Positions 12,251 to 24,461 of a stretch of DNA of 33,805 nucleotides are shown piece after piece. Every line of letters begins with the position of its first letter. Position 1 is the first letter of the stretch. The translations under genes were made by a program, and so were the position numbers. The DNA comes from Crocinitomicaceae bacterium (GTDB lineage Bacteria; Bacteroidota; Bacteroidia; Flavobacteriales_D; Parvicellaceae), in NCBI GenBank assembly GCA_018663635.1, contig JABJPZ010000265.1, positions 1 to 33,805 on the forward strand, given 5' to 3'. The notes under the pieces were generated by a model. It saw only the letters and a list, made by a program, of their open reading frames with translations. It was not told where the DNA came from and made no database searches.

Positions 12251-13411
12251 ATGAAATGGAGACCTTATCTCTTAGTGTTTCTCTTTTTACTAATTCTTAT
12301 TGTAATTGGGATTGCCTATTATTCTGGAAAATCGCAAGGTTTAGCAACAGAAAGAGAAAATGTAAATGTAGATACTACCGCTATTACATCAACAAATGCT
12401 CAAGAAAAACTCAAATTTGTCAATACGGAAACAGTAGAATTACAAACTTATGCTATTGAGATTGAGGCATTAGGTAGGGTTAGCTCTACGCAGGCAATCA
12501 GTGTTATGGCTGAAGTACAAGGTGCACTTTTAGCTGGCAACGTTCCGATTAAAAAAGGTACCTCATTTACAAAGGGGCAGGTTTTATTTAGTATCAATAG
12601 CAATGATGCATCGCTCCTAATTGCCGCAAGGAAGAGTAATTTCCTTACGCTTCTAGCGAATATACTCCCTGACATAAAAGTGGATTATCCCGCTCATTAT
12701 GAAGTGTGGAATATGTTTTTTGATAATATCGATATGGACAGGCCGTTGCCACCTATTCCACCATTGGTAAGTTCAAAGTTAAAAACACTGTTAGCTTCGA
12801 GGAGTGTTTTGAGCGAATATTACAGCATTAAAGCGGATCAAGTGCGGTTATCAAAGTATACGATAACTGCCCCTTTTAATGGAACTATTGTAGATGCATT
12901 TACAGATGTCGGTGCAGTTGTCAATCCAGGTAGTCCTGTAATAAATATTATAAATAGTGATGCATTAGAAGTTGAATGTCAGGTAAAGATGGACGAGGCC
13001 AAATGGGTTCAAATAGGGGCGAAATCAGTTTTAACAGATGATCAAGATAATTCATGGTTGGGAAAAGTGAGAAGAAAAGGGCAGTATCTGAATCCGAATA
13101 CGCAATCTGTCCCCATTTTTGTTGAGCTCTTGAGTAGTGAAAAAAAGGTTTTTAATGGGATGTATTTATTATCAACTATTGAAGCTGATTCAATTTCTAA
13201 CGTATTCGAAATACCAAGAAGTGCGTTGCTAGGAAATATCGCGAAGGTTTATGTGGTTAGAGACTCAATTTTAACCAAACAAAGTGTAGATGTAGTCTTA
13301 TTGAGAGATGAAATGGCTTTAATCGGTGGACTGGACAGTGGTGAAGTTGTTGTTGTTGAACCATTAGTAAACCCCAAAGACAACATGAAAGTAGCTACAA
13401 TAGAGAAATAA
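12251..13411 (+). CDS. RND efflux periplasmic adaptor (membrane fusion protein)
   Basis: The 386-residue product has one N-terminal membrane anchor (YLLVFLFLLILIVIGIAYY). Then come a lipoyl-like half (VMAEVQGALLAGNVPIKKGT), a helical segment, the second half (APFNGTIVDAFTDVGAVVNPG), and beta-barrel and membrane-proximal domains ending KVATIEK. This is the adaptor layout that joins an inner-membrane RND pump to TolC. The segment between the lipoyl halves is not a classic heptad hairpin; it is Pro-rich (PLPPIPPL), a variant I associate with Bacteroidota adaptors. It is the first gene of a tight operon, with the pump starting 2 bases after its stop. The cargo cannot be inferred. Confidence 0.92.
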   Translation: MKWRPYLLVFLFLLILIVIGIAYYSGKSQGLATERENVNVDTTAITSTNAQEKLKFVNTETVELQTYAIEIEALGRVSSTQAISVMAEVQGALLAGNVPIKKGTSFTKGQVLFSINSNDASLLIAARKSNFLTLLANILPDIKVDYPAHYEVWNMFFDNIDMDRPLPPIPPLVSSKLKTLLASRSVLSEYYSIKADQVRLSKYTITAPFNGTIVDAFTDVGAVVNPGSPVINIINSDALEVECQVKMDEAKWVQIGAKSVLTDDQDNSWLGKVRRKGQYLNPNTQSVPIFVELLSSEKKVFNGMYLLSTIEADSISNVFEIPRSALLGNIAKVYVVRDSILTKQSVDVVLLRDEMALIGGLDSGEVVVVEPLVNPKDNMKVATIEK

Positions 13412-13413
13412 GG

Positions 13414-16400
13414 ATGAGAAAATTCATTTCATTTTTTATTAAATATCCGATTTGGTCGAATGCAATCATAATCGTTATTCTTGGTTTTGGCTTATTAAGC
13501 ATGTTTACGATGCGCCATTCCTTCTTCCCTGAAATGGAAAGTAATCGGTTGAATATTATGGTAGCTTATCCAGGTGCTTCCCCACAAGAGATGGAAGAGG
13601 GTGTTACCACTAAGCTAGAAGAAGCATTAAAGACAATTTCGGGAATAGAAGAAATCACATCAACTTCTGCCGAAAATTTTTCTACCATTTATGTCGAATG
13701 TTATACAGACGAAGACATCGATGAAATGCTCACTAAAGTTAAAAATGCGGTAGACGGTGTTAATGGATTACCAATCGCATCGGAGCAACCACTAGTTGTT
13801 AAAAATGAAGCGGGAAGAATGAGTATGGCTTCGTTTATCTCTCTCTCAGGGCCAGATGATTTGGATGTTTTGAAGGAAGTAGGGGATAAAGTGGAAAGAG
13901 ACTTTCTGAACTCAAGTGCCATCTCTGATCTTCAAAAATTTGGCTATCCAGATAAAGAAATTGTCGTTGAAATAAGGGAATCTGATTTGCAACGGTATAA
14001 TTTATCATTCAATCAGGTTGTCCTTGCTATTAATTCAAATAACCTAGATTTCTCTGGAGGTACGATAAAAACGGATGCTGAGGAGTTATTTATTCGTTCA
14101 ATGAATCGTTCTGCAGATCCGAAGGATATTGAAGACATTGTGATATTCGCGCAGCCTGATGGAAATAAGGTTAAGATTCGAGATGTGGCAAATGTATCAT
14201 TAGATTTCTCGGAGGTGGCTGTTAAGTCTTATGTAAATAGTAAAAGAAGTGTTACTTACTTAGTTAATAAACTACCAAATGATGATCTTTCAAAAATTGC
14301 TGAATTTACCGAGAAATATGTTAATGATTTTAACATAAATAATGAAGGATTTGAAATGAAAATCATGTTCCAGTTTTCGGACATGTTAGATGATCGAATT
14401 GACTTGCTCGGCGTTAATTTGTTTTTTGGATTACTTTTAGTGGTTTTCGTTTTAAGCTTGTTTTTAAGAATACGATTGTCACTTTGGGTTGCTTTTGGAA
14501 TTCCTTTCTCCTTTATTGGAATGTTTGCTTTTGGTGCAATATACGGTATGACGATTAACATGATTTCTCTTTTTGGAATGATTATGGTGATTGGAATTCT
14601 TGTTGATGACGGGATTGTAATAGCTGAAAATATTTATGCTCATTATGAGCGCGGAAAAACACCGATGAAAGCGGCATTAGATGGAACATTAGAGGTGATG
14701 TCTTCCGTTTTTACTTCAGTAATAACCACCATTGTTGCATTTGGATTTTTGTTCTTTGTTGAAGGCCGCATGGCATTTATGGCTGAAATGGCATTTGCTG
14801 TTGTTGCCTGTTTACTACTTTCTCTGGTTGAAGCATTTTTAATATTGCCTGCACACCTTTCGCATAACTGGGTATTAAGTGACAAGTCCAGAAAAAAGAA
14901 TAAAGGAATTCGATTTAGGCTAGAAAAAGGGATTGATTGGTTAAGAGATGGTTACGCCTATTTGTTGAGAGGCATTATAAAGCGCTACAGAGCATGGGTA
15001 TTTTTCCCTTTAGTATTTATTCTGTTTACTGTCTTTCTTCAGGCGAAAGGGTATATCGGTTGGACATGGTTTGAAAACCCTCCTTTTGACTCCATAACGC
15101 TTGCTGCTGCCTTCAAACCTGGAGAGACGGCAACTCAAACTGAGGAATTTTTATGGTATGCGCAAGAAAAAATAGACTCTTTAGGAGTTTTATTAGAGCA
15201 AGAGCTCGGTGAAAAAGTGATTACTTATGTTTCTCTTACAGTAGGAAATGCATCAAGTTTGGGAGAAATAGGACCGCATGCAGGATTGATTCGTGTATCT
15301 ACGGAATCTTCGGATAATATTGATACCAGAGCAATCGCTAATAGGATAAAAGCATGCATTTCTAAAGATTGGCAAAACAGATTAGAAAAGTTTTCTGTAG
15401 GTGGAGAAGAGCAATTTGGAAAACCGATATCCATTTCCATTACTTCTGAAGATGCATTTGTTTTGACTGATTGCGCGAGGTGGTTAACGAATGAGTTAGA
15501 AAATATAGATGGATTAAATGACGTAATTGATAATTCTGGTATAGGAAATAGGGAGCTTCAAATCTCGCTAAAACCTAAAGCCAGATTGTTAGGCCTAACG
15601 CTAAACGACGTTTTGGGACAAATCCGGCAAGGGTTTTTTGGCGCGGAAGCACAACGGTTAATTCTTGGTCGAGATGAGATTAAAGTATGGGTTCGTTATC
15701 CAAAGTCAGGAAGGAGTTCGCTCTCTAATATTGACAATGTGCGTATTAAAACAAATACTGGGCAAAGTTTTCCTTTTTATGAATTGGCAGAATATACGAT
15801 TAAACGAGGTAAAGTAGAAATCAACCATTTAGACGGGCGTCAAGAAATTGAAATATCTGCTGATGTAACAGATATGACTAAAGTGGGTGAATATAGTAGT
15901 CAAATATATGCTGAAATTGTTCCACAGATTGCAGAAAAATTTCCAGAGGTGCAAGTAGGTATGCGCGGACAGTCAGAAGAAGGAATGGAAAGTGTCTATT
16001 GGTTTATGATTGCATTTATTGCAGCAATAGTTATGATGATGATTATCTTATCCTTGAATTTCAAGTCCTTTTATCAGGCTCGGCTTATTCTTATGGTAAT
16101 TCCGATTGGTTTTTATGGGGCGATTATGGGACATGGGATAGAAGGATTTAATTTTTCAACTTTAGGACTGTTTGGAGTCATTGCACTTGCAGGTGTTTTG
16201 GTAAATGATTCAGTGGTGATGTTAGATACATATAATCGATTCTTACGACAGGGAATGGATGTTAAAAAAGCGGCTTATGAATGTGGGAAACAACGTTTCA
16301 GACCAGTGATATTAACCACCATAACTACTGTTGCAGGTTTATATCCATTGATTTTGGAAAGCAGTTTTCAAGCTCAGTTTTTGGTGCCGATGGCAATTAC

Positions 16401-16641
16401 AATTGCTTACGGAGTACTTTTTGGGACACTAATTTTAATCTTCTTTTTTCCCGCACTCATTTTGTTTTTTGCAGACATGAAAAGGTCGAGATGGTGGTTG
16501 TGGCGAGGAGGTAAATACCCACCTGCAAGAATTGAGGTGGAGCCCGTGACGAAAATCATGAAAAGAGAACAGCTAATGGCAGATTTTGATGTCGTCAATC
16601 CGAGAATTTCTCAAATGGAAAAAACAATAAATATAGAATGA
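13414..16641 (+). CDS. RND efflux transporter permease
   Basis: This 1075-residue inner-membrane proton antiporter has the twelve-helix RND layout: one helix at the start, two large periplasmic loops, and two blocks of helices. The GILVDDGIVIAENIYAHYERG segment (near residue 395) carries the paired Asp residues expected for proton relay. VLVNDSVVMLDTYNRF (near 930) is the corresponding part of the second half. Porter-domain segments such as MVAYPGASPQEMEEGVTTKLEE place it in the AcrB/HAE1-like hydrophobe/amphiphile group, not the heavy-metal group. The C-terminal tail is soluble and charged. It is the middle gene of adaptor-pump-TolC; the TolC gene begins 1 base after the stop. Confidence 0.94.
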   Translation: MRKFISFFIKYPIWSNAIIIVILGFGLLSMFTMRHSFFPEMESNRLNIMVAYPGASPQEMEEGVTTKLEEALKTISGIEEITSTSAENFSTIYVECYTDEDIDEMLTKVKNAVDGVNGLPIASEQPLVVKNEAGRMSMASFISLSGPDDLDVLKEVGDKVERDFLNSSAISDLQKFGYPDKEIVVEIRESDLQRYNLSFNQVVLAINSNNLDFSGGTIKTDAEELFIRSMNRSADPKDIEDIVIFAQPDGNKVKIRDVANVSLDFSEVAVKSYVNSKRSVTYLVNKLPNDDLSKIAEFTEKYVNDFNINNEGFEMKIMFQFSDMLDDRIDLLGVNLFFGLLLVVFVLSLFLRIRLSLWVAFGIPFSFIGMFAFGAIYGMTINMISLFGMIMVIGILVDDGIVIAENIYAHYERGKTPMKAALDGTLEVMSSVFTSVITTIVAFGFLFFVEGRMAFMAEMAFAVVACLLLSLVEAFLILPAHLSHNWVLSDKSRKKNKGIRFRLEKGIDWLRDGYAYLLRGIIKRYRAWVFFPLVFILFTVFLQAKGYIGWTWFENPPFDSITLAAAFKPGETATQTEEFLWYAQEKIDSLGVLLEQELGEKVITYVSLTVGNASSLGEIGPHAGLIRVSTESSDNIDTRAIANRIKACISKDWQNRLEKFSVGGEEQFGKPISISITSEDAFVLTDCARWLTNELENIDGLNDVIDNSGIGNRELQISLKPKARLLGLTLNDVLGQIRQGFFGAEAQRLILGRDEIKVWVRYPKSGRSSLSNIDNVRIKTNTGQSFPFYELAEYTIKRGKVEINHLDGRQEIEISADVTDMTKVGEYSSQIYAEIVPQIAEKFPEVQVGMRGQSEEGMESVYWFMIAFIAAIVMMMIILSLNFKSFYQARLILMVIPIGFYGAIMGHGIEGFNFSTLGLFGVIALAGVLVNDSVVMLDTYNRFLRQGMDVKKAAYECGKQRFRPVILTTITTVAGLYPLILESSFQAQFLVPMAITIAYGVLFGTLILIFFFPALILFFADMKRSRWWLWRGGKYPPARIEVEPVTKIMKREQLMADFDVVNPRISQMEKTINIE

Positions 16642-16642
16642 C

Positions 16643-17959
16643 ATGCTTAAATTAATGGTAACTATTTTTTTATTGTCTTCGGGTATTTTAGCTTTTGGAC
16701 AAAATAGTTTGACGCTCAAAAACGCCATTGAAGTTGCTTTACAAAATAATTTTCAAATTCAGATTATCCAACTGCAATCTGCTCAGGCAAAAATTAACAA
16801 CACCTGGGGACAAGCTGGAAGATATCCGTCCGTATCATTGTCTATGTCCCAAGGGAATAATATCTCAGATCAAAGTAAAAATCCGACATCGTTCATTCAA
16901 GCTTTATTAATTTCAAACTCTCTGCAGGGTGGCCTAGATCTTAATTGGACTTTATTTAACGGCTTTGCGGTTAAAGCGAATAAGAATCGACTTGCCCAAG
17001 TGCAAGAGCAATCAGAGGGGAATGCAGCAGTTGTTATTGAAAATACGATACAGGCACTTATCTTAAGTTACCATAACGTTCAAATTCAGGAATCCAAATT
17101 AGAATTGCTTCGAGATGTACTGCAAACGTCAAAGAATAAATATGATTACAATAAGCTCAAAACAGAAATTGGCACTAATGTTTCTACGGATTTACTGCAA
17201 TTTCAAAACCAAGTTTTAATTGATTCTGCTAATTTGATGTTACAAGAAATAGCTTTTAGAAATGCTCGAAGAAACTTAAATATCATTATGGGAGCAGAAT
17301 CTGAAAGTAATTATAAGTTAGCAGATGTATTGATGAATGACTTCCCAACTTATGATTATGCAGATTTAAAAAGTAAAATGGAGTCTAATAATCAAAACTT
17401 AAAGAACCAATTTATTAATGAGGAAATTTTTAGACAAGATGTACTGATTGCCAAGTCTAGCATGTTCCCTGTTATTTCCTTTAATGCTGGTGCTTCAGGA
17501 AATTCAAGCTCTTACCGCATTGCTGATTTCCCATCACAGCAAGGAGCGAATCTTAATTATTACGGTAATTTTTCTTTATCCTTCAACTTGTTTAATGGTG
17601 GTAAAGTAAAAAGAGCCATTCAAAGTGCGGATATTCAAACCAAAATAAATGGTCTACAGGTTACAGAATTAAAACAAACCTTGAATCGAGATCTAATTCG
17701 GGCGCACGAACTCTATGAAATGAGAAAAAAAGTCTATTCTCTTAATGTTGAATCGGCCAGTATCGCACTGAAAAACCTAGAAATTGCTCAAGAAAAATAC
17801 GAAAGGGGAATTATTAACTCTTTTAATTTCCGCGATATCAATATTACCTACTTGAATACAGGTATTTCTAGTCTGGAATCTTTGTATAATCTTGTTGATG
17901 CGAAAACAGATTTGATTAGACTCACCGGTGGTCTTTTGCAAGAGTCGTCATCAAAGTGA
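16643..17959 (+). CDS. TolC-family outer-membrane efflux channel
   Basis: The 438-residue product has a signal peptide (to about GILAFGQ), then LTLKNAIEVALQNNFQIQI, the usual start of TolC-family proteins. Two repeats of long helices with FNGFAVKANKNRL and FNLFNGGKVKRAIQ beta-strand segments follow, as in outer-membrane efflux proteins. It would form the exit duct of the pump encoded immediately upstream. It is the last gene of the operon, 1 base after the permease. No hairpin terminator is seen in the following 124 bases. Confidence 0.93.
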   Translation: MLKLMVTIFLLSSGILAFGQNSLTLKNAIEVALQNNFQIQIIQLQSAQAKINNTWGQAGRYPSVSLSMSQGNNISDQSKNPTSFIQALLISNSLQGGLDLNWTLFNGFAVKANKNRLAQVQEQSEGNAAVVIENTIQALILSYHNVQIQESKLELLRDVLQTSKNKYDYNKLKTEIGTNVSTDLLQFQNQVLIDSANLMLQEIAFRNARRNLNIIMGAESESNYKLADVLMNDFPTYDYADLKSKMESNNQNLKNQFINEEIFRQDVLIAKSSMFPVISFNAGASGNSSSYRIADFPSQQGANLNYYGNFSLSFNLFNGGKVKRAIQSADIQTKINGLQVTELKQTLNRDLIRAHELYEMRKKVYSLNVESASIALKNLEIAQEKYERGIINSFNFRDINITYLNTGISSLESLYNLVDAKTDLIRLTGGLLQESSSK

Positions 17960-18054
17960 TGATGTGCAAATCTTTGCATTCTTTCTTGCTCGGCAGTAAA
18001 CAGGTTAGTTGATAATTCTGTCCGGAAATCAATCTGAAATAAATCAAAAAAAGG

Positions 18055-18066
18055 TATGCATGCATA
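18055..18066. promoter_or_regulatory. palindrome TATGCATGCATA, candidate MarR operator
   Basis: A perfect 12-base palindrome 11 bases before the -7 element of the MarR-fadNAE promoter, covering the place where the -33 element should be. MarR proteins commonly bind such sites to repress their own operon. Confidence 0.5.
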
Positions 18067-18077
18067 ACAAATATTTA

Positions 18078-18085
18078 TATATTTG
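18078..18085 (+). promoter_or_regulatory. -7 element TATATTTG of the marR-fadNAE operon
   Basis: Exact TAnnTTTG match. It includes the TTG (18083) used as start in the ORF track, so that TTG is probably promoter and not a start codon. No TTG lies at the usual -33 spacing; the palindrome occupies that place. Confidence 0.55.
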
Positions 18086-18109: not shown

Positions 18110-18559
18110 GTGGAAAAGACGATTAAATTAGATGAGGCAATCGATTTTCAGGTGCGTTGGGCTTGGTATAAGATTATCAAAATGTACAACACTGAAGCTA
18201 GCAATTACGGACTTTCTATGGCTATAGGCCAAGTTCTATTAAATATTGATAAGGATGGTACTCCCTCTACAAAGTTAGGCCCGAAGATGGGAATGGAGCC
18301 TAGGAGTCTGACTAGGATGCTTAAATCACTTGAAGGTAAAGGGCTAATTGTGAAAAGAGCGGATAAACTTGATAAACGAATGGTTAGGGTTTTTCTGACC
18401 AAAGAGGGAGAAGTAAAACGAAAATTATCGAGAGATACGGTTTTACATTTTAACAAATTCATGCGAGAAAATATTTCAAAAACAAAAATGAAAAACTTTT
18501 TTGAAGTCCTGTCAAAAATGAATGAGTTGATTGATAATAACGATATATACAAGAAGTAA
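18110..18559 (+). CDS. MarR-family transcriptional regulator of the fad operon
   Basis: The 149-residue product is a winged-helix regulator. Helix-turn-helix residues are in TPSTKLGPKMGMEPRSLTRMLKSLEGKGLI and the wing in RADKLDKRMVRVFLTKEG, with dimerisation helices at both ends. It starts the fatty-acid oxidation operon, with fadN 11 bases later, so it likely senses an acyl-CoA or fatty acid and controls the operon; this is inferred from position. No ATG exists before the conserved core. The TTG at 18083 overlaps the -7 box, so I choose the GTG at 18110. A palindrome upstream is the probable operator. Confidence 0.85.
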   Translation: MEKTIKLDEAIDFQVRWAWYKIIKMYNTEASNYGLSMAIGQVLLNIDKDGTPSTKLGPKMGMEPRSLTRMLKSLEGKGLIVKRADKLDKRMVRVFLTKEGEVKRKLSRDTVLHFNKFMRENISKTKMKNFFEVLSKMNELIDNNDIYKK

Positions 18560-18570
18560 CAGATTAAGGA

Positions 18571-20955
18571 ATGAAAAGAAACATTAGAAAAGTAGCCGTT
18601 TTAGGTTCTGGAGTTATGGGCTCAGGAATCGCTTGCCACATGGCCAATGTAGGATGTGAAGTATTACTGCTTGATATTGTGCCTAAAGGTGCGGAAGATT
18701 CTGACAAAAAAAGCGAAAGAAACGCGTTGGTAGACGGTGCCTTAAAAGCGGCAATGAAATCAAGACCTGCGCCTCTTTACACCAAAAAATTTGCATCTAG
18801 AATTGTTACGGGAAACATGACCGACGACATGCACAAAATTGCAGATTGCGATTGGATAATTGAAGTCGTTGTAGAGCGATTGGACATCAAGAAAATCGTT
18901 TTTGATAATGTGGAAAAATACAGGAAAGAGGGCACTTTAATTACTTCTAACACCTCAGGAATTCCAATTCATATGATGCTTGAAGGACGTAGCGCTGATT
19001 TTCAAAAGCACTTTTGTGGCACTCATTTTTTTAATCCTCCTCGCTATTTAAAGTTGTTGGAAATCATACCAACACCTCAGACAGATCCAAGTGTTATCGA
19101 CTTTTTTATGGATTACGGAGCAAGAATATTGGGCAAGACAATGGTTCTGTGTAAGGATACACCTGCATTTATTGCTAATCGGGTTGGAGTATATGCGATA
19201 CAAGATCTTTTTCATACGGTAGGTGAAATGGGCCTTACCGTTGAGGAGGTGGATAAATTAACGGGTCCGGTCATGGGTAGGCCAAAGTCCGCAACATTTA
19301 GAACTTGTGATGTTGTTGGTTTGGATACGCTTGTACATGTAGCTTCTGGAGTGAGGGATAATTGCCCTGATGATGAACGTAGAGAAGTTTTTGAAATTCC
19401 TACTTACGTTTCGAAAATGGTCGAGAACGGCTGGCTGGGTTCTAAAACCAAGCAAGGATTTTTTAAAAAATCCGTCAATGCTGAGGGTAAAAAAGAAATT
19501 CAGGTTTTGGATTTGGAAACTCTGGAGTATAGAGCTCAGAATCGAGTGAGCTTTGCGACACTCAAGACCGCAAAATTGGAAGATGATTTAGGAAAAAGAA
19601 CGCAGATTCTATTTGGTGGAAAAGACAAAGCTGGCAAGTTTTATCAATCAGTTTTTTCAGGAGTGTTTCAATATGTGACGAATCGAATTCCCGAAATTTC
19701 AGACGAATTATACCGAATTGACGATGCTTTAAAAGCGGGCTTTGGTTGGCAAATGGGTCCTTTTGAAACTTGGGATTGCATAGGTTTGGAAAAGGCACTT
19801 AAGGTAATGGAAGAATTAGATCGGAAACCTGCTCAGTTCGTTTACGATATGATTGCTGATGGCGTTACTTCTTTCTATAAGTTGGAAGATGGTGCCAGAA
19901 AATACTACGATGTTGCTGAAAAATGTTATAAAGTGATTCCAGGAACGGAAGAAATTTTATCCTTGGCTAATGTAAGAGAAACAGAAACCATTTGGAGCAA
20001 TGCAGATGCCCACATCATTCATTTAGGGGACGGGATTATTAATGTAGAATTCCATACCAAAATGAATACAATTGGCGGTGGAGTCTTGCAAGCACTAAAT
20101 AAAGCAATTGATTTGGCAGAAACTGGCGAATGGAAAGGTGTTGTCATTTCAAATGAAGGTGAAAACTTTTCTGCTGGTGCAAATGTTGGAATGATTTTCA
20201 TGATGGCTGTTGAGCAAGAATTCGATGAGTTAGATTTTTCGGTTCGTGCATTCCAAAATACAATGATGCGTTTGAGGTATTCTGCTATTCCTGTGATTGC
20301 AGCTCCACATGGACTTGCATTGGGTGGTGGATGCGAAATTTGTTTGCATGCAGATAAGGTAATTGCACATGCCGAAACCTACACGGGCTTAGTAGAATTT
20401 GGTGTTGGTTTAATTCCTGGAGGTGGCGGAACGAAGGAGTTTGCATTAAGAAATGCAGATGAATTAAAGGAAGGAGACATGCGCATTAACAACCTCCGTA
20501 ATCGATTTTTGACTGTTGGTCAGGCAAAAGTTGCGACTTCAGCGCATGAAGGATTCGAACTGGGTTATTATCGACCAGGAGTAGATGAGGTAATCGTATC
20601 TAGAGCACATCAACTAATTTATGCTAAAGAGGTTTGCTTAGAAATGGCAAATAAAGGATACCAGCAACCGGCTCGAAGAAAAGATGTGAAAGTTTTTGGC
20701 CAGGAAGGACTCGGTATTGTATACGTAGGTGCCGATGCGATGCATGCAGGTAAATATATTTCAGACCATGATAAATTAATATCGGAAAAATTGGGATTTG
20801 TGTTATGTGGTGGAGATTTGTCCTCACCAACAGAAGTATCGGAACAGTATTTACTAGACATGGAGCGTAAAGCCTTTTTGGAATTATGTGCTGAGAAGAA
20901 AACATTGGAAAGGCTGCAGAGCTTACTTCAAACGGGTAAAATTTTAAGAAACTAA
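18571..20955 (+). CDS. fadN: 3-hydroxyacyl-CoA dehydrogenase / enoyl-CoA hydratase fusion
   Basis: This 794-residue bifunctional enzyme carries out the hydration and NAD-dependent oxidation steps of beta-oxidation. The dehydrogenase comes first: NAD-binding LGSGVMGSGIACHMA (11-25), SNTSG, and HFFNPP near residue 150 with the catalytic His. The hydratase domain is C-terminal (about 480-680): GENFSAGANVG, HGLALGGGCE and GLVEFGVGLIPGGGGT form the acyl-CoA pocket and the oxyanion hole. This order is the reverse of E. coli FadB and matches Bacillus subtilis FadN, which has almost the same length. The gene order fadN-fadA-fadE also matches. It follows the MarR gene by 11 bases and precedes fadA by a few bases. 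Confidence 0.93.
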   Translation: MKRNIRKVAVLGSGVMGSGIACHMANVGCEVLLLDIVPKGAEDSDKKSERNALVDGALKAAMKSRPAPLYTKKFASRIVTGNMTDDMHKIADCDWIIEVVVERLDIKKIVFDNVEKYRKEGTLITSNTSGIPIHMMLEGRSADFQKHFCGTHFFNPPRYLKLLEIIPTPQTDPSVIDFFMDYGARILGKTMVLCKDTPAFIANRVGVYAIQDLFHTVGEMGLTVEEVDKLTGPVMGRPKSATFRTCDVVGLDTLVHVASGVRDNCPDDERREVFEIPTYVSKMVENGWLGSKTKQGFFKKSVNAEGKKEIQVLDLETLEYRAQNRVSFATLKTAKLEDDLGKRTQILFGGKDKAGKFYQSVFSGVFQYVTNRIPEISDELYRIDDALKAGFGWQMGPFETWDCIGLEKALKVMEELDRKPAQFVYDMIADGVTSFYKLEDGARKYYDVAEKCYKVIPGTEEILSLANVRETETIWSNADAHIIHLGDGIINVEFHTKMNTIGGGVLQALNKAIDLAETGEWKGVVISNEGENFSAGANVGMIFMMAVEQEFDELDFSVRAFQNTMMRLRYSAIPVIAAPHGLALGGGCEICLHADKVIAHAETYTGLVEFGVGLIPGGGGTKEFALRNADELKEGDMRINNLRNRFLTVGQAKVATSAHEGFELGYYRPGVDEVIVSRAHQLIYAKEVCLEMANKGYQQPARRKDVKVFGQEGLGIVYVGADAMHAGKYISDHDKLISEKLGFVLCGGDLSSPTEVSEQYLLDMERKAFLELCAEKKTLERLQSLLQTGKILRN

Positions 20956-20960
20956 TTGTG

Positions 20961-22148
20961 ATGAAAATGAAAACAGCATATATAGTAGGTGGATACAGAA
21001 CAGCAGTAGGTAAAGCACCTCGTGGGAAGTTTAAATTTACTCGACCGGATGATTTAGCAGCTGACGTAGTTAGAAAATTAATGTCAGATTTCCCACAACT
21101 AGATCCATTAAGAATCAATGATGTAATTGTAGGAAATGCGACTCCTGAGGCGGAACAAGGTTTGAATATTGGCCGAATGATTTCATTAATGGGATTGGAT
21201 ACCGATAAGGTTCCGGGAATGACTGTGAACCGATACTGTTCATCCGGATTACAGACCATTGCTCTTGCATCTTACCAAATCATGGCAGGAGCTGCGGATT
21301 GTATCATTGCGGGTGGTGTAGAAACAATGTCTCCAATTCCGTTTGGAGGATGGAGAGTTGTGCCCAATGCACGGGTAGGCAAAAATCAACCGGATTGGTA
21401 TTGGGGAATGGGGCTAACTGCAGAAGCAGTGGCAAATCAGTTCAATGTGTCCAGAGAAGATCAAGACAAGTTTGCGATGGGTTCACACCAAAAAGCACTT
21501 GATGCTATTGCTAATGGCCGATTTAAAGAAGACATTGTGCCAATAACAGTTAATGAAGTGTATTTAGATGAAAATGAAAAGAGGCAAGAACGAAATTACG
21601 TTGTCGATACGGATGAGGGACCACGTGCTGGATCCACTTTGGAAGCGCTTGCCAGATTAAGACCGGTTTTTGCTCAGGGAGGATCAGTTACAGCAGGTAA
21701 TTCCTCTCAAACATCTGATGGAGCTGCATTCGTAATGGTGATGTCTGAAGATATGGTGAAAGAACTGGGTGTACAACCTATCGCAAGAATGGTAGACTTT
21801 ACGGTTGTTGGCCTTGAACCTAAAATAATGGGAATGGGACCACTACATGCCATTCCGGCATCGTTGAAAAATGCAGGAATGAAGCTGAATCAATTAGAAC
21901 AAATAGAATTAAATGAGGCTTTTGCATCGCAAGCCGTTGCATGTGTTAGAGAGCTTGGTGTTGATTCGGAACTTGTTAACGTCAACGGTGGAGCGATTGC
22001 ATTAGGACACCCATTGGGGTGTACTGGAGCAAAACTAACGGTGCAATTGTTTAATGAAATGAGAAGAAGAAAACAACAATATGGTGCAGTGTCGATGTGT
22101 GTTGGAACAGGTCAGGGTGCATGCGGTATTTTTGAACTTTTGAATTAA
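20961..22148 (+). CDS. fadA: acetyl-CoA C-acyltransferase (3-ketoacyl-CoA thiolase)
   Basis: The 395-residue product cleaves 3-ketoacyl-CoA to acetyl-CoA and a shortened acyl-CoA. The nucleophilic Cys is in NRYCSSGLQT (near residue 93), the His is in GGAIALGHPLGCTGAKL, and the second active-site Cys is in CVGTGQGACGIFE. All thiolase signatures are intact and the length is normal. The ORF track starts at a GTG (20958); I use the adjacent ATG at 20961, and the ATG at 20967 is equally possible. It begins 5 bases after the fadN stop, so the two are surely co-transcribed. Confidence 0.94.
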   Translation: MKMKTAYIVGGYRTAVGKAPRGKFKFTRPDDLAADVVRKLMSDFPQLDPLRINDVIVGNATPEAEQGLNIGRMISLMGLDTDKVPGMTVNRYCSSGLQTIALASYQIMAGAADCIIAGGVETMSPIPFGGWRVVPNARVGKNQPDWYWGMGLTAEAVANQFNVSREDQDKFAMGSHQKALDAIANGRFKEDIVPITVNEVYLDENEKRQERNYVVDTDEGPRAGSTLEALARLRPVFAQGGSVTAGNSSQTSDGAAFVMVMSEDMVKELGVQPIARMVDFTVVGLEPKIMGMGPLHAIPASLKNAGMKLNQLEQIELNEAFASQAVACVRELGVDSELVNVNGGAIALGHPLGCTGAKLTVQLFNEMRRRKQQYGAVSMCVGTGQGACGIFELLN

Positions 22149-22167
22149 GATTATATAAAGGATTACA

Positions 22168-23964
22168 ATGGAAACAGCAGATAAGAAAACAGAAGCAATT
22201 AAAGGAGGAGAATTCCTGATTAGAGATACGAAGGCACAAGAAATATTCATTCCAGAAGAATGGACCGAAGAGCAGCAGATGATTGCTCAAATGTGCCGTG
22301 ATTTTCTAGCAACAGAAGTACATCCGAATTTGGATCGAATTGATGCTATGGAAGAGGGATTAATGGTTTCGCTGATGGAAAAGGCCGGAGCACTAGGGAT
22401 GCTTGGTCTTTCCGTACCCGAAGACCTAGGTGGTATGGGTGTCGATTTTAAAACTTCGATGCTCGCAACTGAAGCACTGGGTACTGGATTTTCGTTTTCA
22501 GTTGCTTACGGGGCGCATACAGGAATTGGGACTTTACCATTACTATATTATGGGACACAAGAGCAGAAGGCCAAGTACATTCCAAAATTGGCTTCTGGAG
22601 AATGGAAGGCATCGTATTGCCTTACTGAGCCTAGCTCGGGTTCGGATGCAAATTCGGGAAAAACGAAAGCTGTTTTAAGCGAAGACGGAAAACATTACAG
22701 TATTACAGGACAAAAGATGTGGATTACCAATGGTGGATTTGCGAACCTGCATACAGTTTTTGCTAAAATCGAAGATGATAAGAACTTAACTGCGTTCTTA
22801 ATTGAGGCGGATTCAGAAGGAATTACCCTGAATGCAGAAGAGAAAAAAATGGGCATTAAAGGATCTTCGACACGACAGGTATTTTACAATAATGTAAAAA
22901 TACCTGTGGAGAATTTGCTTGGAGAAAGAGAAGGAGGATTTAAGATCGCTGTAAATATTTTAAATATTGGAAGAATAAAATTAGCTGGAGGTGTTATGGG
23001 TGGCGCAAAAGGTGCCTTCGTCGATTCTATCAATTATGCGAATGAACGTGAACAATTTGGAAGATCGATTTCAAAATATGGAGCAATCAGACATAAATTA
23101 GCAGAACAAATTATCAAAATATTTACTGTTGAATCAGCTACATATAGGGCTTCTCAGAATATTGATGACGCAATCAATTCCCTAATAGAAAGTGGGATGG
23201 ATAAGGGGAAAGCCACTTTAAAAGGAATAGAACAGTTTGCACCTGAATGTGCTATTCTTAAAGTTGTTGGCTCGGAATGCTTGGATTATGTGGTAGACGA
23301 AGGTGTTCAAATTCATGGTGGAATGGGGTTTTCGGCTGAAACTCAGATTGAACGATCTTACAGAGATGCTCGAATAAATAGAATATTTGAAGGTACAAAC
23401 GAAATCAATAGAATGCTTACAGTTGGTATGATTATGAAAAAAGCCATGAAGGGTGAGCTAGATCTTATGGGGCCAGCGATGGCGGTAGCCAATGAATTGA
23501 TGGGAATTCCAGATTTTACCGAAGGAAGCGATGCGCTCTTTGATGCTGAAAAAGTATATGTAAAGAATTTCAAAAAGGCCGTATTGATGATAGCGGGTGC
23601 TTCTGCTAAGAAATATGCAGATAAGATGGCCAAGGAGCAAGAAGTAATGATGAATATTGCGGATATGGTAAATGAGGTTTATTTAGCCGAATCTACCTTA
23701 TTACGTGTTGAAAAAATGGTAAGTATTCGAGGTGAAGAATCATGTCAAGAACAAATTGATATCATGAGGGTGTTTATTTACGATGCTGCAGATGCAATTA
23801 ATAAATCAGGGAAAGATGCATTGAACGCTTTTGCAGAAGGTGATGAAATGCGAATGATGTTAATGGGTTTAAAACGATTTACGAAGCATGCTCCTTTTAA
23901 TGCAAAGGAAGCTAGACAACGTATCGCATTGAAAGCAATTGATGCGAATGATTATTGCTACTAA
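22168..23964 (+). CDS. fadE: acyl-CoA dehydrogenase
   Basis: The 598-residue FAD enzyme introduces the trans-2 double bond, the first oxidation of the cycle. Visible motifs are YCLTEPSSGSDANSGKTKA and KMWITNGGFANL (flavin and substrate binding), GGMGFSAETQIERSYRDAR and FEGTNEINR with the likely catalytic Glu. It is longer than the 380-residue short-chain type; an extra helical C-terminal domain of about 150 residues makes it like the long-chain/ACAD9-type enzymes and B. subtilis FadE (about 594 aa). It begins 19 bases after fadA, with AAAGGA upstream as a possible ribosome-binding site. It is the last recognised member of the beta-oxidation operon. Confidence 0.94.
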   Translation: METADKKTEAIKGGEFLIRDTKAQEIFIPEEWTEEQQMIAQMCRDFLATEVHPNLDRIDAMEEGLMVSLMEKAGALGMLGLSVPEDLGGMGVDFKTSMLATEALGTGFSFSVAYGAHTGIGTLPLLYYGTQEQKAKYIPKLASGEWKASYCLTEPSSGSDANSGKTKAVLSEDGKHYSITGQKMWITNGGFANLHTVFAKIEDDKNLTAFLIEADSEGITLNAEEKKMGIKGSSTRQVFYNNVKIPVENLLGEREGGFKIAVNILNIGRIKLAGGVMGGAKGAFVDSINYANEREQFGRSISKYGAIRHKLAEQIIKIFTVESATYRASQNIDDAINSLIESGMDKGKATLKGIEQFAPECAILKVVGSECLDYVVDEGVQIHGGMGFSAETQIERSYRDARINRIFEGTNEINRMLTVGMIMKKAMKGELDLMGPAMAVANELMGIPDFTEGSDALFDAEKVYVKNFKKAVLMIAGASAKKYADKMAKEQEVMMNIADMVNEVYLAESTLLRVEKMVSIRGEESCQEQIDIMRVFIYDAADAINKSGKDALNAFAEGDEMRMMLMGLKRFTKHAPFNAKEARQRIALKAIDANDYCY

Positions 23965-24038: not shown

Positions 24039-24461
24039 ATGGATTTAAGAGAAAAACTGATAAGTCAGATCAGTGAGGGTATAGATAAAAAGCAGAGCAA
24101 TGATAACTCTAATAAGAGTATTTTAGCAAGAGGCTGTGACCCAAGAATGGCTCAACGTGCGATTGAATTAATACCTCCTTTGATAGGTAACCCCGAAATG
24201 GTTGCGGTTACAAATGACGATGATTTTATTAAAGAATTACAGAGGAAAAAGTGGTCAATTATTCAATTTGCACCAGGAGCATGTAGATACGATGCATCAA
24301 AATTACCGATTCCAGGCAGTCGCATGATCACAAATGGATGGGGGTTAGAAAAGTACCGGGAACTTGTGCGCAAATATCAAGGAGAGGAAATAAAAATTAT
24401 TGAAACAACGGATGAACGTCAAATCGTTAATCTGCTTCGCAAAGCATTGGATGCTATTTGA
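24039..24461 (+). CDS. hypothetical protein, 140 aa, downstream of fadE
   Basis: I do not recognise this family. The protein has no signal peptide or membrane segment. After a polar N-terminus it carries a compact alpha/beta-looking core with SILARGCDPRMAQRAIELIP, KKWSIIQFAPGACRYDASKLP, TNGWGLEKYRELVRKY and IKIIETTDERQIVNLLRKAL. Two Cys residues (in RGCDP and PGACRY) and the FAPGAC motif would be the first candidates for functional residues. It lies 75 bases after fadE on the same strand with no visible terminator between, so it may belong to the fad transcript. Its stop codon overlaps the palindrome TTTGATCGATCAAA. Confidence 0.75.
   Translation: MDLREKLISQISEGIDKKQSNDNSNKSILARGCDPRMAQRAIELIPPLIGNPEMVAVTNDDDFIKELQRKKWSIIQFAPGACRYDASKLPIPGSRMITNGWGLEKYRELVRKYQGEEIKIIETTDERQIVNLLRKALDAI

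Follow-up and report, generated by a model that had tools for sequence, protein, structure and literature searches.

The window, by which we mean the whole 33,805-nucleotide stretch of DNA analyzed here, comes from a Crocinitomicaceae bacterium and carries a marR-fadNAE operon in which a MarR-type regulator gene leads genes of fatty acid beta-oxidation. A 12-bp palindrome lies in the operon's promoter, and the features of the locus are as follows:

18055..18066, no strand assigned: putative operator palindrome TATGCATGCATA, consensus TATGCNNGCATA, with the centre mostly AT, GT, AC, TT or AA
18055..18058, + strand: first half-site TATG, 19 nt before the -7 element, in the place expected for a TTTG -33 element, which it would overlap
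18078..18085, + strand: -7 element TATATTTG (TAnnTTTG), read from the sequence, with a conserved spacing of 10-12 nt
18110..18559, + strand: marR, putative autoregulator, GTG start, Pfam MarR (PF01047), AlphaFold model at pLDDT 89
18571..20955, + strand: fadN-like 3-hydroxyacyl-CoA dehydrogenase/enoyl-CoA hydratase, directly 3' of marR in 76 of 80 named loci
20958..22148, + strand: fadA-like acetyl-CoA acyltransferase (thiolase)
22168..23964, + strand: fadE acyl-CoA dehydrogenase, above the cut-off of NF058590

The mechanical list of open reading frames gives marR a TTG start at 18083, which falls within the -7 element. Because an in-frame stop separates the equivalents of TTG 18083 and GTG 18110 in a relative that is 97% identical (L006), we take GTG 18110 as the most likely start codon, which would place the -7 element outside the coding sequence and give an expected 5' UTR of about 20 nt. 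Upstream, window 12251-18054 contains an RND efflux operon whose end is 95 bp from the palindrome; in several relatives (e.g. L008, L011 and L012), marR seems to be preceded by a gene end of the same type. As a scan for terminators between these genes and marR detected none, transcriptional read-through into marR-fad is possible. On the other side of the operon, a 140-aa open reading frame after fadE (window 24039-24461) has no Pfam or NCBIfam match.

Promoters in Bacteroidota follow the consensus TTTG (-33) and TAnnTTTG (-7), with the -33 element required for full but not basal activity (PMC6847099, PMC2483708). TATATTTG matches the sigma-A -7 consensus at a conserved position, and the original prediction had placed the palindrome 11 bases ahead of it in a promoter lacking an ordinary -33 TTG. 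Our coordinates agree on both points: exactly 11 nt (ACAAATATTTA) separate TATGCATGCATA from TATATTTG, and neither TTTG nor TTG occurs within 18031-18078, where the half-site TATG stands instead. As TATG is one base from TTTG, it could retain a degenerate or residual -33 function. A sigma-70 promoter scan returned no match, as expected for the phylum. Aligning 133 promoters on the site proximal to the gene, we counted 73 TAnnTTYG hits, 52 of them with a 10-12 nt spacer, against a chance expectation of about 4 over the whole scanned stretch; in these alignments the motif is fixed and the flanking columns are near random.

Palindromes of this length are common in the AT-rich window. The original prediction had rightly called a 12-base palindrome not rare, although its figure of about eight expected was too low: we computed 11.7 and found 13 perfect ones. 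The palindrome alone is thus no evidence. For TATGCATGCATA itself, allowing up to one mismatch, 0.06 occurrences are expected in the window and one is found.

We found the motif conserved in three sets that overlap and share ancestry, so that their counts are not independent: exact TATGCNNGCATA stands upstream of all 28 marR orthologues examined in the GTDB family, within 300 nt in 76 of 80 named GTDB loci (mostly Flavobacteriales), and, at the order and class level, within 160 nt in 58 of 79 loci, with one mismatch in 12 more. Dinucleotide shuffles of 77 named regions gave a mean of 0.03 regions with TATGCNNGCATA, compared to 73 observed. At least one exact site is present in 35 of the 41 families of class Bacteroidia examined; no exact site was found in the other 6 or in about half of family f8, some of which have variants with one or two mismatches. 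The original prediction had been staked on conservation in relatives, and this is strongly present. Twelve of the 28 family promoters contain a second TATGCNNGCATA copy 28-29 bp upstream. Upstream of marR in the genus mate G037 (L007), such a second copy lies 29 bp from the first; the window's own species and the nearest relative (L005 and L006) lack it.

Further copies of the site, whose presence near acyl-CoA genes the original prediction had proposed as a check, were found in the window's own genome, in genus mates and across the family. The own genome contains five TATGCNNGCATA copies and none of the reversed control. Four are in promoters, namely those of marR-fadNAE, etfB(A) (divergent from pdhB), an acyl-CoA dehydrogenase and an aldehyde dehydrogenase, and the fifth lies inside gapA. 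Of these sites, genus mate G037 retains those of marR, etfB and the acyl-CoA dehydrogenase and has a further one at a FadH-like FMN reductase. Genus mate G038 retains those of marR, the acyl-CoA dehydrogenase and the aldehyde dehydrogenase; in the aldehyde dehydrogenase site the centre differs, suggesting that selection acts on the palindrome arms. The etfB/pdhB site recurs across the family. Additional site-bearing genes in relatives encode a 4HBT thioesterase, pyruvate carboxylase biotin-carboxylase subunits and an iron-sulfur membrane protein, for which Pfam gives 4Fe-4S domains only and which is possibly an ETF:quinone oxidoreductase.

At the class level, an etfB site is present in 6 of 20 MarR-bearing genomes (five exact and one near match) compared to none of 20 MarR-lacking genomes (one-sided p = 0.01). 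As this is a minority of the MarR-bearing genomes, it counts against a class-wide beta-oxidation regulon, as does the own-genome aldehyde dehydrogenase, whose place in beta-oxidation is not evident. At the class level we also compared TATGCNNGCATA with the reversed control over whole genomes, but the contrast, diluted by chance copies that have other centres, was too weak to tell genomes with MarR from those without it.

The marR product scores 36.9 bits against PF01047 (cut-off 24.6), and Foldseek searches with its AlphaFold model returned SarZ, SlyA, MepR and MexR structures as top PDB matches, with FabT (6jbx) also among the top hits and CouR (6c2s) among the hits. In SlyA, the reported base-contacting positions are S62, V64 and R65 (PMC4737184). 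These align with S66, T68 and R69 in the recognition helix of our protein, which are invariant in 19 orthologues. The resemblance to SlyA/MarR-type operators extends from the short palindrome to the matching helix positions. Differences lie in the outer bases of the site, in the regulon and in the score against the SlyA NCBIfam model, which is far below its cut-off. The GC-NN-GC core of the palindrome resembles the SlyA box.

The window's genome encodes a second MarR protein (G000:C205:18919-19408, L278) that is about 42% identical to the marR product and adjoins a second set of thiolase and acyl-CoA dehydrogenase genes. TATGCNNGCATA is absent from the promoter of this paralogue. A sister palindrome, CAATGCNNGCATTG, is found instead, both in the promoter region and at the opposite end of the gene cluster. 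Not only in the window's genus but also in several others of the family, CAATGCNNGCATTG is found at the paralogue locus, often as two copies; some copies are located away from it, and one paralogue locus carries a TATGC site in its place. That each of the two MarR paralogues has a palindrome of related sequence is best explained if the palindromes are MarR operators.

Together our results suggest, with high confidence for a reading drawn from comparative sequence evidence, that the palindrome is the operator of a MarR autorepressor controlling a class-wide beta-oxidation regulon. The autoregulation that the original prediction had considered plausible is well supported by the conservation of the site and by its further copies. 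From the computed motif, position, conservation and regulon membership, we infer the binding, repression and ligand release that make up the proposed mechanism. A MarR dimer would bind TATGCNNGCATA with one recognition helix per half-site, at the -33 position of a sigma-A promoter and 11 nt before TAnnTTTG. Since the site occupies this position, bound MarR should exclude RNA polymerase, and repression of marR-fadNAE, including autorepression, is the simplest mechanism. The same repressor would act on the other site-bearing promoters, which are those of etfBA, the acyl-CoA dehydrogenase and the aldehyde dehydrogenase in the own genome, and of the FadH-like reductase, thioesterase, pyruvate carboxylase and iron-sulfur membrane protein in relatives. 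On the arrival of fatty acids, MarR would most likely bind an acyl-CoA and be released, and beta-oxidation would be switched on along with its electron-transfer partners.

Release by an acyl-CoA, which the original prediction had also put forward, is the part of this proposal that we hold with less assurance, considering it somewhat favored on the strength of the regulon content, the usual logic of catabolic MarR proteins and the analogy to CouR. CouR of Rhodococcus jostii RHA1 is a MarR repressor whose DNA binding is abolished by p-coumaroyl-CoA (PMC4737184). It shares with our regulator the MarR fold, a catabolic regulon, an inverted-repeat operator and, as proposed here, a CoA thioester ligand, and differs in governing a p-hydroxycinnamate pathway instead of fatty acids. 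Its CoA-contacting Arg36 and Arg38 are S36 and A38 in our protein by a hand alignment made via SlyA Thr30 and Thr32, so the detailed release mechanism would differ from that of CouR. This substitution leaves room for a MarR repressor that answers another effector, such as a free fatty acid or acyl-ACP, or whose ligand strengthens binding, a reading that we consider rather unlikely. A precedent for it is FabT of Streptococcus and Enterococcus, which shares the MarR fold, a palindromic site, lipid gene targets and, as proposed here, autoregulation with our regulator, but which governs fatty acid synthesis and binds DNA better with acyl-ACP (PMC9083066), whereas the regulon here is catabolic. Our protein also falls outside the FabT family as defined by NCBIfam, scoring 23.4 bits against NF050133 compared to a cut-off of 200. 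For catabolic MarR repressors, the usual releasing signal is an intermediate from early in the pathway (PMC5487221), and most members of the regulon here act on acyl-CoAs or on the electrons drawn from them. Moreover, the R. palustris CouR protein, without those arginines, still answers a CoA thioester (PMC4737184).

The same promoter geometry could be read as that of an activator, with MarR at the palindrome supplying the RNA polymerase contact that is missing without a -33 element. The site does replace the -33 element at conserved spacing and without TTTG, and MarR-family activators are known, although most characterized MarR proteins are repressors (PMC5487221). Activation appears improbable to us, as the site lies only 16-20 nt before the start codon at the aldehyde dehydrogenase and pyruvate carboxylase genes, an arrangement that suits blocking more than activating, and as TATG may keep some -33 function. 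A chance palindrome, or the site of an unrelated global DNA-binding protein, would fit the abundance of 12-bp palindromes in the window but is scarcely credible: the site is conserved across the class at one set place in the promoter, accompanies the marR gene, recurs at acyl-CoA genes and has a variant counterpart at the paralogue.

Autorepression by a MarR protein through a palindromic operator is ordinary; the regulon and motif described here appear to be new and class-wide. Our search of the open literature, with subscription papers and regulon databases (RegPrecise) outside its scope, turned up neither this motif or regulon nor any regulator of fatty acid degradation in Bacteroidota. In Proteobacteria, the functional analogues are FadR, PsrA and FadP, where one repressor presides over beta-oxidation and ETF genes. 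FadR is a GntR-type protein and PsrA and FadP are TetR-type, whereas the regulator here is a MarR protein with an unrelated motif. Inducible control of beta-oxidation in the phylum is consistent with work in Flavobacterium psychrophilum, in which fish mucus and plasma strongly induce fatty acid oxidation genes (PMC9723704). With one short motif and its regulator present in at least 35 families, the regulon can be read directly from genomes.

A broader picture, which we put forward tentatively as possible though doubtful, is that this MarR protein is an ancient, class-wide master regulator of fatty acid catabolism in Bacteroidia, FadR-like in role and unrelated to FadR, whose operator replaces the -33 element such that sigma factor and repressor share one TATG half-site. 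The duplicated MarR would then have diverged to CAATGCNNGCATTG, with residues 65 and 68 setting operator preference, and the two paralogous regulators with sister motifs form a natural pair for studying the evolution of MarR specificity. Covariation between these residues and the operator is confounded by phylogeny: 14 of the 15 proteins with R65/T68 have the exact core, and the remaining one is at a short contig end, compared to 13 of the 26 with T65/S68, the rest of which mostly have near-matches. We rejected a strict specificity code, in which R65 would specify TATGC and N65 would specify AATGC, on the counterexample of the paralogue in genome G005, which has N65 and a nearby TATGCGTGCATA. 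As a separate observation, family f8 (L181-L201 and L210) has the recognition helix TSLSR instead of RSLTR, and about half of its genomes have looser or degenerate operators.
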